This document shows positions 43 to 57,100 of a stretch of 64,000 bases of DNA, in pieces. Positions within the stretch are counted from its first letter, which is position 1, and the number at the start of each line of letters is the position of its first letter. The stretch comes from Macrocystis pyrifera (taxonomy: Eukaryota; Sar; Phaeophyceae; Laminariales; Laminariaceae): the NCBI GenBank assembly GCA_031763025.1, contig JASSKH010000016.1:4092001-4156000 (forward strand). The letters are read 5' to 3'. The notes under the pieces were generated by a model. The model was not told the DNA's origin, did no database searches, and saw nothing but the letters and a program-made list of their open reading frames with translations. A program made the translations under genes and the position numbers.

Positions 43-3000
43 GTGCGTAGCGCTAAGACGTGGATATCGGACATGAAATACACCAAGGATGGGACCTTGC
101 TCGCCGTCGCGTCGAGGGGCGGACAGGTCTACATCCACGACGCAAAGGACCACTACAGCTTGAAGACAACAACAGGTGCGTGCGTTCCGCGAAAATGATC
201 TCCCCGCGAGCTGAGTCCTCCGACTCGGCAGTGTGGACGTAGAATAGCGCGACTGTGCACGAGAGGTTTTTACGCGTGAGTGAGCACGCTCTGCAAACTT
301 CTGTCGCCGGGCGATCCTGACCATGCAGCAGGCGCACAGAAATAGCACGGCTGTGTTAGAGTTTACTTCGCCGTTTTCTAGTACGAGGGAACATACTTGT
401 GTTTTTGCACTGTAGAAGTAAACACTTGCTGAACCGTTCGGTAAGCTTGGATTTTTCAAGCGTCAGACGTGAAGGGGAGATATATTGGCCACCGGTGTTG
501 TCCAAGAAGAGTATTTCCATCCTCTGGGGCAGTTAAAATCAATGTGACCGTGGAACATAGGAAATGGTGCGAGTCACCCCCTCCTCTCCCCCATATATTA
601 TATATAGGTTGGGTTGGCGTCGGTTGGCAACGACACTGTAAAACATGCCGCTCACTACTTGAGCTAGACAACCAGTGTACCGTTTTTTCTGTTTCTTGGT
701 GGTCGATCACAGCTGGTGGTCGAGTTATAGATCGTTAGTGCGGGGTGGAGACCATATACTCTGCACAAGGGAAACGATCGTATCACGTACCATGTAGTGT
801 TTATGGTAAGGCACCCAAGAGGCAGTCACATATTACGGGGGTCCATAGTTAACGGGACCAAATTTTGTGAGTAAAAATAGGTAAATATATAGTTTTTTAT
901 GTATACCATAGGTCCTATTAACTATGGACCACAGCTGTCTCTGAAAGTGGTAACACCAGAAAATGAGTCTGTCATCCCCATGCAAGTCCGCCTCACGAGC
1001 GGTTCTTAGTAGGATGTAGCTTACCCTTGATGCGACTCACCTGACACCTCTCGTCGCTTCGTGCTTGGTGCAAGCCGTGTTTGCCTGGTCGGTGAAAACC
1101 CCACGTGCCCCGTCTCGGCATAGTAGGAATGCGAGAGCCATACGACTACGGCCATGCAAAATATCGAGTATACTTCCCTCCCCATCCCCCCCCCCCTCCC
1201 CATCCTCCCCCAACCCCACCCTCCCCCCGACTCCCCCCCCCACCTCCCTTCTCCCCTCCCCCGTCCCGGCATTGTAGGGATGCGAGGGTCTATGGTCATA
1301 CGACTACGGCCATGCATGATATCGAGTACACCCCCCCCCACCCGCCCCACCCTCACCCACCCACCCCTCCCCCCACCCTTCTCCTCGATTACTCGTCCTT
1401 TCATGTTTTTTGTCCTCTGGGACACCGAATCGCAACGAGCTAGGCACGCAGAAAGTAGGGTGAGCCACCGCCCCCAGCCGCCCCCCCTTCCCCCCCCCCC
1501 CACCTCCCCCGTGCCCCCCCCCCCACCCGTCCTTGCTCCCCCACGCTCTTCCTCGCTTACTTGTCCTCTTATGTTCATGTTGTTTCCACAAACGTTTTTG
1601 TCTACGCTAGAAAAACCGGACGATGGCAGCTTCATAACAAACATGGACTTTTCAGCGGACAATGGCATACTTCAAGCTACCACAAGGTATGTACGTCCGA
1701 TCGAAAACGCGCGGTTGACACGACCTTTTCGTCGAACGAAAAGCCGTGGTGAACACCGAAAAACAAAGAGTGAAACATAGGTCCCCCCCTCGCCAGCACA
1801 ATGTGGGCATAAAAAACCGTTTTGTGGAGACATCGAACAATGTACCAAACCCATCAACCAAAGTATCGAAAACTTCTCAATTCGGTACGCATAATGGTGC
1901 GGTACATTGTTCAATGTCTCCACAATAGTGTTGTCACACCCTCACTGTGCAAGGGGGGGGTTCCCCGCCACCCAAGGGGGGTCCCCGCCACCCAGGCCAC
2001 CCAAGGTGGGGCCCCCGCCACCCCGGGGCGGGGGGGGTTCCGGCCACCTGTGTAGTAGGGGGGGGCGGGCGTTCCGCCACATGGTACTGCAACAATGGCA
2101 TGGAGCACTTCAACTGCATGAGGCTACTCGACGGAGGAACTCCATATCCTACGTAACACACCGACTTTTGATTAAAAAAAAAATGTTAAGCAAAGATCAA
2201 CGCGCAGTATCGTGGGACAGACAGCCGATCTGTTGCAGGCGGCGGTCGCCGTATCACACTCACACGTGGCGAGCGGCTCTCGTGAGGACGCGGTAACGAA
2301 CCTGAACCGTTTTAGCACCGCAGTCCCATTTTGGGGATAAAGTACTTGAAATTTGAGTTGTTCGTCCTCGAGCCGGGACTGCAGTCCTAAAAATGTTAAG
2401 GCTACCACGGGGGGACGGTATTACCGGGGGACCGTAGTAAATAGGACCAAATAGTGTCGGTAAAAATAGTTAAATATATAGTTTTTAGTCTGCACCATAG
2501 GTCCTGCTTACTATGGTCCCCCGTAATAGGAAGGAGCAGGAGCAAATACGGCGTGTAAGACATAGGCGAATTGCATGTTTTTTTTTTCGGTACATCGTGG
2601 GGTTCTGATTGTTGTGGTCCTCAAACAAGGCAAATGAGTTCGGTCGATGGTGGTGCTCTCGAAGGAGAACACCGGACATGGTAATCGCTTGTTCCGCTGA
2701 AGCGATGCGTTGCTGTCTATACAGTCCAAACTGCACAGCCAACCGGGAAGCCCTGAAATCAGATTGCCACCGGCGACGAGCGATGCGCTGCTGTCTACAC
2801 GACACTAGTGCCCGAGCGCAGACAGAGTGAACGGAGCAAGCAGCATGTCATTCTTTTCCGCCAAACGATGCGCTGCTAACTATGCCTAAGGTTCAAACTG
2901 CAGAGTTGTCAACACAGAGCAGCCTCAGACCTGGTATCATTTTTCCGCCGCATGACGCGCTGCTGGTCCTGCTGCTGCTGTGTCTATGTATATGTCGGTA

Positions 3001-54100: not shown

Positions 54101-57100
54101 GCAAGCGCCGTGAGGTACTCGGGAAGTCGTATGAAAGGTGAGCTGCAACGTAATGAGAACCGCTTGTGAAGCGGACTTGCACATGGATGACAGCTTCAAC
54201 GAGTATCAACATGTTCCGTACATTTAAGGGACAAAGTGATACCTCGTAAGAGATAAGCATACACACGAGAAAGTGACGGCAAAAAAAACGACGGCAAACG
54301 TGAGAAGGAGACGGACGGAGAGAAAGAAGCACGAGGCAAAAGCTACTATAGCCCGAAGTGGGACATATATACTCGGAAAAAATCAAAACGTAAAAAAGCC
54401 CAGGCACGGGGAAAAAAGAGCTAAAATAAAAGGAAAGGTAGAGGTACACGCACGCAACACATCACCTACACATGCACGCACAAGAAAGAGCGGTGTGTGT
54501 CGACACCGTGAAGGAAGGAGCCGCTGTGCCCGGAACAACACAACGTGTTTCAGCGTCTTCGCCTCAGACGCATGCGACGATAGACAGGGGTACGTACGTA
54601 AGTGCAAGTACGTATAGCAGTAGCAATTTTTGGTCGAAATATTTATCTGCGACGGCGGACCTCCTTATATATAATAACCCGTTGGAGACCCCCCCGAGAG
54701 AGCGAGCGGCCAAAAAATGGTTGGTGAACTTTGGTTTCATCAACCATCTACGACGAGCAGCGTCAGCGCCGAGCAGCAGCAAGGGCAGGGTCCTATTGCG
54801 TCCGTGCCGTGCGGCTAATTGCCTTGTAATTCAGACGCCAAGTCGTACCATCTCCCAACCACGCAGCGGCCACAAAGGCTGCCCTTATCATCACTTCTCA
54901 CCGTCAAATTTTTCCCCTCTCAGGTCTTAAGAGGTCTATAACCGAGGAACTATCTACCCAAAGAGGCAGGCACTGCCTTATCCCCTGAGAGATCAAGGGG
55001 TACACGAAACAACAACAACAACAACGAAAAAAAAACGACACCCCACTTACTTCTTCTTGAGTCCCAGACAGGGTGAGGGGCACACACTAAAATTGAGTTA
55101 AAAAACATGAAAAAAAAGGTTATGTTCAATTTCTGACGAAACTCCCAACGCAAGTTCATGTCCAAGTTCAAGCACGTACAACACAAGTGTGAGCACGAAA
55201 AATCCAGCTGGCATTGTAGGTCGTTGCAATAGCTGAGAGAACGGGCATCGTCACGAAAAAAGCTCAAAAGCGTTACACAGCCATTGCTCGAGTCGAGCAT
55301 CCAATCTCCTGTCAAGGGTCTACCATGGTATCAAAATGTTAAGGCGAAAGCATCATCGCGAAAACACTCGGAACACGAAACCTCTGATTGCCACCGCCAG
55401 CACCAGTTTCAAATAAACATCTCGTCAGGTCCTAGTAAAAATATCACGAAGAGGCATCACATCGCCAAACAATAAAAAAACCACCACCGCCAGCGTCAAA
55501 TGAGTCTCCGTCAGGTTCTACTGCTGTAGTGAATTACTAAAAAAAACGGGTTTCGACCCTAAGGCGAATCTATCCACCCACACACCTATCCATCAACCCG
55601 CCCACCAATCTCCTACCCACCAACCTACCCATCCATCCACCCGCCCAGTCACCCAATCAACCCACCCACCCCCCCCACCCATCCACCCGCCCGCCCACCG
55701 ACCAACCCACCTACTCCCACCCACCCACCCACCCACCTACCACCCAACGACCCAACGACCCATGCAAAAGTTATCCTGCACCAATTCCAAGTACATGTCC
55801 CAACAAACGGTGGGTGCACTTTTAACGGGGTGAAACATAGAGCACTGACTGGAGGGGGGGGGGCAGGGGCGCGCGAAGGCAACAGCAGCTACAACCATTG
55901 CCGGGGACCATCGTAAATAGGACCTACGGTACACACAAAAAAATGCATGTTTTCCTACTTTTGCTAACAATATTTGGTCCTATTTACTATAGTCCCCCGT
56001 AATATGTGTACTACAGTAGGTATATATAGCCGCCGACGCGCTCTCGTTGGCACCAGAACTACGGGAAAGGATGCGTACCCATAGGAGACACAAGGTTCGC
56101 CTTCGGGACTACGGTTCACTCGAAACCCGGGAGTGTCTCAGGGTGAAAACGGGAGAGAGAAACACAGAAGGCGTTCGTCCCTCGTACCAGCTACTCGTAC
56201 GTAGTCAACCGGTCAAGAAAGAAAAAACATGAAAAAAAAAAAAAAAGCTTGAAAGTTAGAGAAAAAAAAAGAAGTGGACACCCACCGGGGGCAAGTAACC
56301 GGGCAAGTAACGCCGACTGCAGCCCAAACGAGTTTAAAGCGAGTTCTACACCAAGAAAAGCCTTATGGTAACGCACATAGACGATGATGCCGATGGCGGC
56401 GGCGGCGGCAGTGGCGGCGGCATGGCGTTACCCTGAACCCGCGCGCGCGACCATGCCCTGTGTTGCATGAAACGTGTATGCCAGCCCCGTTTTTTCGGCA
56501 GCTTTGCGGCTTCGAGCGCGCGAACCGGACCGGTCCGTACAGTTGCATAAAATAATCAGCCAACCAACCAACCAACCAACCAACCAACCAACCGCCAACT
56601 AACCAATCGATCAACTCGAGTCATCAATCAATCGATCGAGCGACCAATGAATCAATAAAGATTTTTCAATCGATCAAACAATCAATCAACCGGCCAATCA
56701 ACCAACTAAGCAGTCAAATAATCAGCCATTCAACCAAGCAAAAAAAAGCACGATCACTCAACCAACCAACTAACAAATCAACTCAACAATTAGTTAATCA
56801 GTCGATCAATCACCCCACCAATCATTCAGGCAACCAACAAATAAAACAACCAACCAAAATCGAATCGCAGGCAGTCAGTCAAGCCAGTCAGATGTAGTCA
56901 GCCGGCCAGTCAAGTCAGTCAATAAAGCCAGTCAGCTATCAAGTTAAGTCAGTCAATAAAGCCAGTCAGCTAACAGCCATGGTCTCTCTTATAGTGCCGG
57001 TTGCGCGCTATATATAGTAGTGCCTGTGGAATCGCTTGGCAATACAGATGGGATTACTGTAGCCAGTGTGGTAGTGTGGTAGTGTGGTAGTGTGTTAGTG

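Follow-up and report, generated by a model that had tools for sequence, protein, structure and literature searches.

A probable LINE and non-autonomous retroposon pair associated with homopolymer C runs in the genome of the brown alga Macrocystis pyrifera

The window analyzed here is a stretch of 64,000 nucleotides from Macrocystis pyrifera (assembly GCA_031763025.1, contig JASSKH010000016.1, positions 4,092,001 to 4,156,000 of the forward strand). It carries two related repeat families, A with 13 copies and B with five, located on both strands by a profile scan and alignment, in line with the initial annotation, which had counted at least 15 dispersed copies on both strands. Matches by chance are excluded, the mean in shuffled sequence being 0.01. 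The longest C or G run of the window measures 51 nucleotides.

The forward-strand copy A1 is the only one in the window that extends to the true 5′ end. It directly follows a C-rich putative landing site (CACCCCCTCCTCTCCCCC, 575–592) and consists of a 5′ half (593–836; an AT-rich leader at 593–606, then element positions 2–225), a nested palindromic repeat of ~100 bp (about 837–928), and a 3′ half (929–1172; element positions 228–489). The C-rich tract next to it (1186–1241) comprises the tail of A1 and the presumed landing site of A2, a 5′-truncated copy on the same strand followed by C9 (1261–1330). A3 (3896–4050, reverse strand) is 5′-truncated, has C14 on its 5′ side (4054–4067), and ends in the tail ATCGAGTACATCTCTCCTATCGAGTAC, then C13 (3867–3879). 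The forward-strand chain C16–B1–C19–B2–C12–A4–C9 spans 18697–18983, with B1 at 18723–18786, B2 at 18808–18868, and A4 at 18888–18969. A5 (20507–20787, forward) is 5′-truncated, covers element positions 206–485, and features a C-rich tail without a 5′ C run; C11–B3–C17 follows on the reverse strand (21159–21256; B3 at 21179–21242), as does C14 with the strongly 5′-truncated A6 (24331–24387). A7 (26292–26540, forward) is 5′-truncated, lacks a 5′ C run, and has C9 and more C-rich sequence 3′ of it.

The rest of the copies lie on the reverse strand. A long C-rich tract precedes the 5′-truncated A8 (31192–31417, within 31192–31546). The stretch 41999–42180 contains a B fragment (42155–42180), C18, A9 (42032–42137), and C34, and C22 is followed by A10 at 43871–43998. 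A further chain (45307–45790) reads C17, B5, C-rich sequence, a copy of a ~100 bp flank (45600–45698), C-rich sequence, A11, C17, A12, and C-rich sequence; the second copy of the flank lies at 45200–45293 with a C-rich tract at its start, and the pair around A11 and A12 is possibly a long target-site duplication. The 5′-truncated A13 (53981–54218; element positions 256–489) has a short C-rich tail and no 5′ C run, and B6, a LINE 3′ end (53859–53971), sits directly inside this tail. In addition, duplications at ~1378/1549 and 41456/41639 start after C tracts, which is suggestive.

The A family features a 3′ end that reads ...CATGCATGA(CAT)CGAGTAC, followed by C-rich sequence. As judged by pieces of the same 537-Mb genome, the full element measures ~490 bp plus the AT-rich leader, i.e., ~500 bp. 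Exact copies of the 22-bp element head occur 3,979 times in this genome, compared with 0 for the reversed control. The body of up to ~210 bp described initially is the 3′ half only, and a full length of ~210–230 bp is ruled out: A5, A7, A8, and A13, first taken as full-length, are 5′-truncated. Many copies in the window are truncated distal to the tail. A genomic sample of 61 records (275 kb) from this single genome was picked by an exact 19-bp tail; 60 regions come from the first 100 of 308 listed tail positions, with two contig-edge hits (represented by L004 and L007), 16 hits in array-like clusters on contig C189, and two more left out. Merging identical flanks reduced the tail copies from 68 to 60, and collapsing reduced the element hits from 133 to 129, three of which fall outside both 5′ classes. 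The distinct 5′ ends comprise 96 truncated and 30 full-length ones at a fixed 3′ end, the pattern of a 5′-truncated retroposon with a consistent 3′ junction that had been proposed for the family. The loci L005, L009, L025, L029, L036, L044, and L050 (model start 131–141) were rejected as a different kind of repeat without a long 3′ C run.

Rfam gives no match at E ≤ 5 for 53850–54230—which holds the 3′ half of A only—and none at gathering level for the whole window; with no tRNA found either, a tRNA-like head was dismissed. All 15 full-length copies that were examined contain an internal T run of 5–18 nt near position 75–95, and such a T run would stop Pol III. Judged by sequence, A does not qualify as a SINE, that is, a Pol III-transcribed element with a tRNA-, 5S-, 7SL-, or snRNA-derived head. 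No inverted pair links the ends of three A copies, all three 5′-truncated, and comparison of full-length ends by eye revealed no terminal inverted repeats such as those of MITEs and other DNA transposons. A conserved tail hairpin was discarded, RNAalifold giving three pairs, none compensatory. Pattern scans of viral contigs, phages, and plasmids returned no match.

By their sequence, the B copies are 3′ ends of LINEs from a family that encodes APE-type endonuclease and RT_1 domains. Upon translation, B3 corresponds to the C-terminus of the LINE ORF, whose stop codon lies 5 nt upstream of the C run. The B 3′ end is fixed at GAGTAC plus C, and the common stretch upstream of it varies from about 55 to 686 bp. 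Two genomic loci illustrate the arrangement: L039 reads C17, LINE fragment, stop, GTACG, C16, and an A element with its head, and in L072 coding sequence for RVT_1 and Exo_endo_phos/Exo_endo_phos_2 runs into the B end, to which C13 and then an A element in truncated form are joined. The reverse transcriptase of L072 matches RVT_1 in Pfam (E 7.5e-29) and, among solved chains, human LINE-1 ORF2p (E 1.9e-18), R2, and other reverse transcriptases; its endonuclease matches Exo_endo_phos_2 above the cut-off (E 9.9e-07, frame pieces searched separately), with two Exo_endo_phos pieces below it (E 4e-05 and 2.3e-04). L072 is the single LINE copy examined in full, and its reading frame is broken. A 120-aa LINE piece matches at 150 of 150 scored places, scored from 4,070 first-look candidates, i.e., at least 150. 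Pfam found no reverse transcriptase in 20 window ORFs of the 256 listed by length, one RVT_2 only (in L044) in 10 ORFs of sampled loci, and only zf-RVT (E 0.072) in three separate pieces of L039, the first of which has no solved structural relative. Strict target specificity is uncommon among APE-type endonucleases.

A LINE of the sort that the initial annotation suggested searching for, with a corresponding type of 3′ end, exists in L072 and L039. As is typical of a LINE-dependent non-autonomous element, A has its 3′ end in common with the LINE copy bearing the B end. The tails of A and B are 0.65 identical on average (range 0.52–0.77), and both finish in GAGTAC followed by a C run; since this identity is moderate, the nearest LINE of A itself may be a different subfamily. 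If fragile C/G runs provoked recombination or faulty replication, the repeats could have spread as segmental or satellite-like sequence rather than by retroposition; this would fit the C-rich tract that starts the ~100 bp duplication around A11 and A12 and the array of A copies with ~21 kb spacing on C189. However, the copies number in the thousands and are scattered over many contigs, their 3′ end is fixed while their 5′ truncation varies, they have a single orientation relative to C, and a reverse transcriptase-encoding relative has the same end, all of which makes this reading very improbable.

C runs flank both ends of the copies, on the strand of the element itself. On the 3′ side, at least eight C in a row occur within 40 bp of 11 of the 18 window copies, and the other seven (A6, A8, A10, A12, A13, B5, and B6) have C-rich sequence with runs of 5–6; a homopolymer C ending in every copy, as claimed initially, is hence too strong. 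Among 118 distinct 3′ ends of the sample, C≥8 is found within 45 bp in 65, C≥6 in 90, and G≥8 in one. The 5′ runs are a feature absent from the initial annotation. Within 30 bp 5′ of the window copies, C≥8 occurs in 12/18 and G≥8 in 0/18 (null p 0.0142, binomial 1.1e-18), counts that were repeated with revised 5′ starts; this stretch is free of C runs at A5, A7, and A13, and at A1, A11, and B6 it holds runs of 4–7 only. In the sample, full-length 5′ ends carry C≥8 within 45 bp in 17/30 (null 2.5%), C≥6 in 23/30 (null 4.5%), and G≥6 in 0/30, and a run of C≥4 lies upstream of 29/30 within 90 bp and of 27/30 within 40 bp of the head. Truncated ends carry C≥8 within 30 bp in 40/96 (null 1.7%), C≥6 in 55/96 (null 3.1%; none in the other 41), and G≥6 in 0/96.

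Because same-strand C runs precede full-length and many truncated copies, they appear to serve as landing sites and not as tails alone, with copies landing in one another's tails. Insertion at G/C runs is therefore the better supported half of what had been proposed. The suggested new retroposition signature finds partial support; a C run that predates the insertion, named at the time as evidence against the signature, is largely what the 5′ runs indicate, with no empty site seen. Target-site duplications outside the C run, for which a search had been proposed, show no excess at 44 C tracts (mean score of 12.0 in the forward and 12.9 in the reverse direction, compared with 12.7 for the control). 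A 23-bp flanking repeat of A5 (20533–20555/20805–20827) was rejected as such a duplication, as it does not exceed C-rich controls and the 5′ one of its two copies is part of the element. An earlier contrast, 5′ C runs at truncated but not at full-length copies (Fisher p 0.03), was dropped because it was based on a wrong full length, A5, A7, A8, and A13 having been taken as full-length.

Alternatively, the C tail might be the sole genuine feature, the upstream runs being tails left by older copies with heavy truncation. Chains are common, and GAGTAC or GAGTAT precedes the 5′ C runs of many full-length copies (L023, L026, L027, L028, L038, L039, L048, L057, and L059). Yet C≥8 remains 5′ of 7/13 window copies after removal of the five preceded by the tail of another copy or fragment (1.9e-10), and L030, L031, L032, and L035 follow C runs without a preceding element end by eye, so this account is quite doubtful; even if true, the tail would itself be a target. 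Somewhat less improbable, though still unlikely, is that A has no C tail of its own and only inserts in pre-existing C runs, common microsatellites here. C runs at both ends are in keeping with this, as are the 31 of 49 window C runs of at least 9 that have no copy within 40 bp. On the other hand, the tails of A5, A7, and A13 are C-rich despite 5′ flanks that are not, which is why the element itself probably also brings a C-rich tail, and C≥6 is commoner at 3′ ends than at truncated 5′ ends, the stretches compared being 45 and 30 bp long. In the sample, 93 of 176 runs of at least 12 C have no same-strand A copy within 60 bp—B copies being excluded from the count—so C runs may have other origins, too.

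The explanation that we consider probable is an APE-type LINE with a non-autonomous partner, in which A would be a retroposon of ~500 bp and C-tailed RNA would be primed on genomic G strands. The related 3′ tail of A and B, GAGTAC plus a C run, suggests that the LINE machinery moves both alike, A being mobilized in trans. Target-primed reverse transcription would begin at genomic C runs: the LINE enzyme would nick the G strand, the freed G 3′ end would anneal to the C-tailed end of the RNA, and the new copy would be laid down in C-strand orientation. C would thereby be kept on both sides of every copy, with any duplicated target bases hidden within the homopolymer. The C tail of a copy would be a later landing site, which would give rise to the chains.

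L1 and Alu in A-rich targets feature a homopolymer 3′ tail, a primer strand complementary to this tail, frequent 5′ truncation, and an APE-type LINE. The system described here has the tail, the truncation, and the type of LINE in common with them, as well as, in the proposed mechanism, the complementary primer strand; it differs in that C replaces A and in that the partner A bears no sign of Pol III origin and carries an internal T run. Poly-A or short A/T-rich repeats form most of the LINE and SINE tails known to date, and a literature search on C-tailed retroposons gave nothing relevant by title or abstract start among the matches listed. R2, R4, CRE, NeSL, and some HERO elements, as described in the part of the source consulted, likewise target simple or multicopy sequence, but these mostly target-specific clades carry a restriction-like endonuclease, in contrast to the APE-type enzyme and C-homopolymer target here (PMC4640811). 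Ectocarpus harbors RTE-X LINEs with the ~600 bp non-autonomous RTEX-N1_Ec32, which, according to the sections consulted, is also an abundant, short brown-alga element with a 3′ end common with an autonomous LINE and a 5′ part of unknown origin (PMC12477816). The same sections, compared by description only, do not mention a C tail or a C-run target for RTE-X or RTEX-N1 (PMC12477816). This Ectocarpus census is the sole pointer to the RTE-X clade, which is suggested for the present LINE.

If a C-tailed LINE system residing in C runs is real, the rule of pairing between RNA tail and target primer would not be bound to A/T, and M. pyrifera would offer a natural, very abundant test system for tail-guided targeting by an APE-type LINE. 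Long C/G runs are rare in most genomes. The chances are about even that homopolymer C acts as both the RNA 3′ tail and the address of a LINE/non-autonomous pair that spreads on C runs and is maybe a main cause of the unusual richness of this genome in long C/G runs. Such a C-tailed LINE system could explain the long C/G runs, which may form G-quadruplexes.

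Both strands of the window carry 13 copies (A1–A13) of family A, a short non-autonomous retroposon, as well as five copies and one fragment of the related family B, the 3′ ends of a LINE. GAGTAC(A/G), or a near variant of it, closes most copies and is followed by a C-rich stretch. The initial annotation had every copy closing in a homopolymer C run, which holds as at least eight C within 40 bp 3′ for 11 of the 18 copies (runs counted on the element's own strand) and is too strict for the other seven, whose C-rich tails are interrupted. C runs on the 5′ side were missing from that description: at least eight C lie within 30 bp of the 5′ end in 12/18 copies (random placement, 1.4%) and at least eight G in 0/18. 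The count stayed at 12/18 after the 5′ starts were revised with a longer profile, and excluding five copies downstream of the tail of another copy or fragment still leaves 7/13 (P 1.9e-10). Elements bear C at both ends on the same strand. Chains such as C16-B1-C19-B2-C12-A4-C9 (18697–18983) are an expected consequence of C runs preceding elements. Runs of at least 12 nt comprise 14 of C and 23 of G versus four of A and seven of T, and none arose in 20 base shuffles of the window; 31 of the 49 C runs of at least nine have no A or B copy within 40 bp. At 43309–43613, three diverged modules of ~60 bp (AAAGCTAACTG...CTCTCCCAGTCCCCC; the third as judged by eye), each closed by a C-rich run, may represent a further C-tailed family. 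A (TAGA)n microsatellite of ~135 perfect copies occupies 27025–27565. The ORF at 34813–35529 (−) is helicase-like, with weak Pfam matches under the cut-off (Viral_helicase1, UvrD_C_2), and by eye we take it to be PIF1/Helitron-like.

The genome of the window (537,376,219 bp, 223 contigs) holds 308 exact copies of the 19-bp A tail and 3,979 exact matches to the 22-bp A head, with 0 for the reversed control. Alignment of sixty 3.5-kb genome regions defined the true 5′ end of A—an AT-rich leader, e.g. TATATTATATACCTGGTATATATA, then GGGTTGGGTTGGCGTCGGTTGGC...—far upstream of the head previously taken as the start of the element. The A element measures ~490 bp plus leader. A1 is the sole window copy reaching the true 5′ end; it is preceded by a C-rich tract (575–592; longest pure run only C5) and split into two halves (607–836 and 929–1171) by a nested palindromic MITE-like repeat. 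This ~100-bp repeat (core TACCGTAGGTCCTATTTACTATGG) forms 18 segments in 64 kb: 826–930, 2411–2530, 3216–3335, 9177–9332 and 14 more up to 60054–60168. All 15 full-length A copies examined contain a T run of 5–18 nt at position ~75–95, as though the element had an antisense poly-A junction embedded in it. In a large subfamily, the last bases ATCGAGTAC are doubled (ATCGAGTACATCTCTCCTATCGAGTAC, then C), as at 3867–3915 (−) and many sampled loci. At locus L003 (~3150–3260), a ~19-bp tandem repeat of the middle of A (CCCGACGTGCTCCATCCGA) stands directly 5′ of a truncated copy, perhaps because of reverse-transcriptase slippage or an assembly effect.

A profile search of 61 records (275 kb, window included) yielded 129 distinct A copies. 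Among 30 with the true 5′ end, at least eight C lie within 45 bp in 17, at least six C in 23 and at least six G in none (null 2.5% and 4.5%). A run of at least four C precedes the head in 29/30, within 40 bp in 27/30; the thirtieth, at L056, sits after another copy whose end is C-rich. Among the 96 truncated copies, at least eight C lie within 30 bp in 40, at least six C in 55 and at least six G in none, leaving 41 with neither run of six. The 118 3′ ends include 65 with at least eight C within 45 bp, 90 with at least six C and one with at least eight G. All these counts come from a sample picked by exact tail and list order and hence biased toward well-preserved 3′ ends. The 3′ end is fixed, 5′ truncation is variable, and copies form chains. 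At seven loci (L005, L009, L025, L029, L036, L044 and L050) the A tail is attached to a repeat of another kind and lacks a long C run; at L044 it lies downstream of an RVT_2 ORF. A 21-bp tail piece matches exactly in three contigs of bacterial MAGs (Akkermansiaceae, Robiginitomaculum, Granulosicoccaceae); one, L002, holds a copy with GAGTACA and C11 that adjoins ORFs of eukaryotic look, as judged by eye. These copies are likely host contamination.

The B tail extends upstream into coding sequence. Locus L039 reads C17, a 5′-truncated LINE piece of ~1 kb with its stop codon within AACAAATGAGTAC, C16, and an A element including its head. For a 120-aa piece of this LINE, a first look at the genome gave 4,070 candidate places; 150 of them were scored, and every one of these 150 was a match. 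At L072, where the reading frame is broken and protein pieces were searched separately, Exo_endo_phos/Exo_endo_phos_2 pieces and RVT_1 (E 7.5e-29) precede the B end, which is followed by C13 and a directly adjoining truncated A element. The best solved relative of this reverse transcriptase is LINE-1 ORF2p. An APE-type LINE copy ends in the same GAGTAC and C run as A.

The best explanation, which we consider probable, is an APE-type LINE with A as non-autonomous partner and a C-tailed RNA primed on genomic G strands. The LINE enzyme would move A, the element RNA would end in C, and genomic G strands would prime by pairing with this C end. The analysis did not demonstrate target-site duplications beyond the C run; duplications inside homopolymer C would be invisible. 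The only candidate for a longer one is a ~100 bp duplication flanking A11 and A12, with a C-rich tract at the start of both duplicate copies. By eye, a possible exon start (MKVAVAAIVVPAPPNTFTHEKLGKNGFTAQ, then GTGAGG) adjoins the A12 tail at 45150–45260 (−) and is partly duplicated 5′ of A11.

In the accessible part of the openly licensed literature, no description was found of a C homopolymer as both tail and target. A LINE with a non-autonomous partner and a repeat-targeted retrotransposon are already known kinds. In Ectocarpus, the commonest single family is a ~600 bp non-autonomous element with a 3′ end common to RTE-X LINEs (PMC12477816). Likened by description rather than by sequence, the A and LINE pair of Macrocystis pyrifera and these Ectocarpus elements may be relatives.
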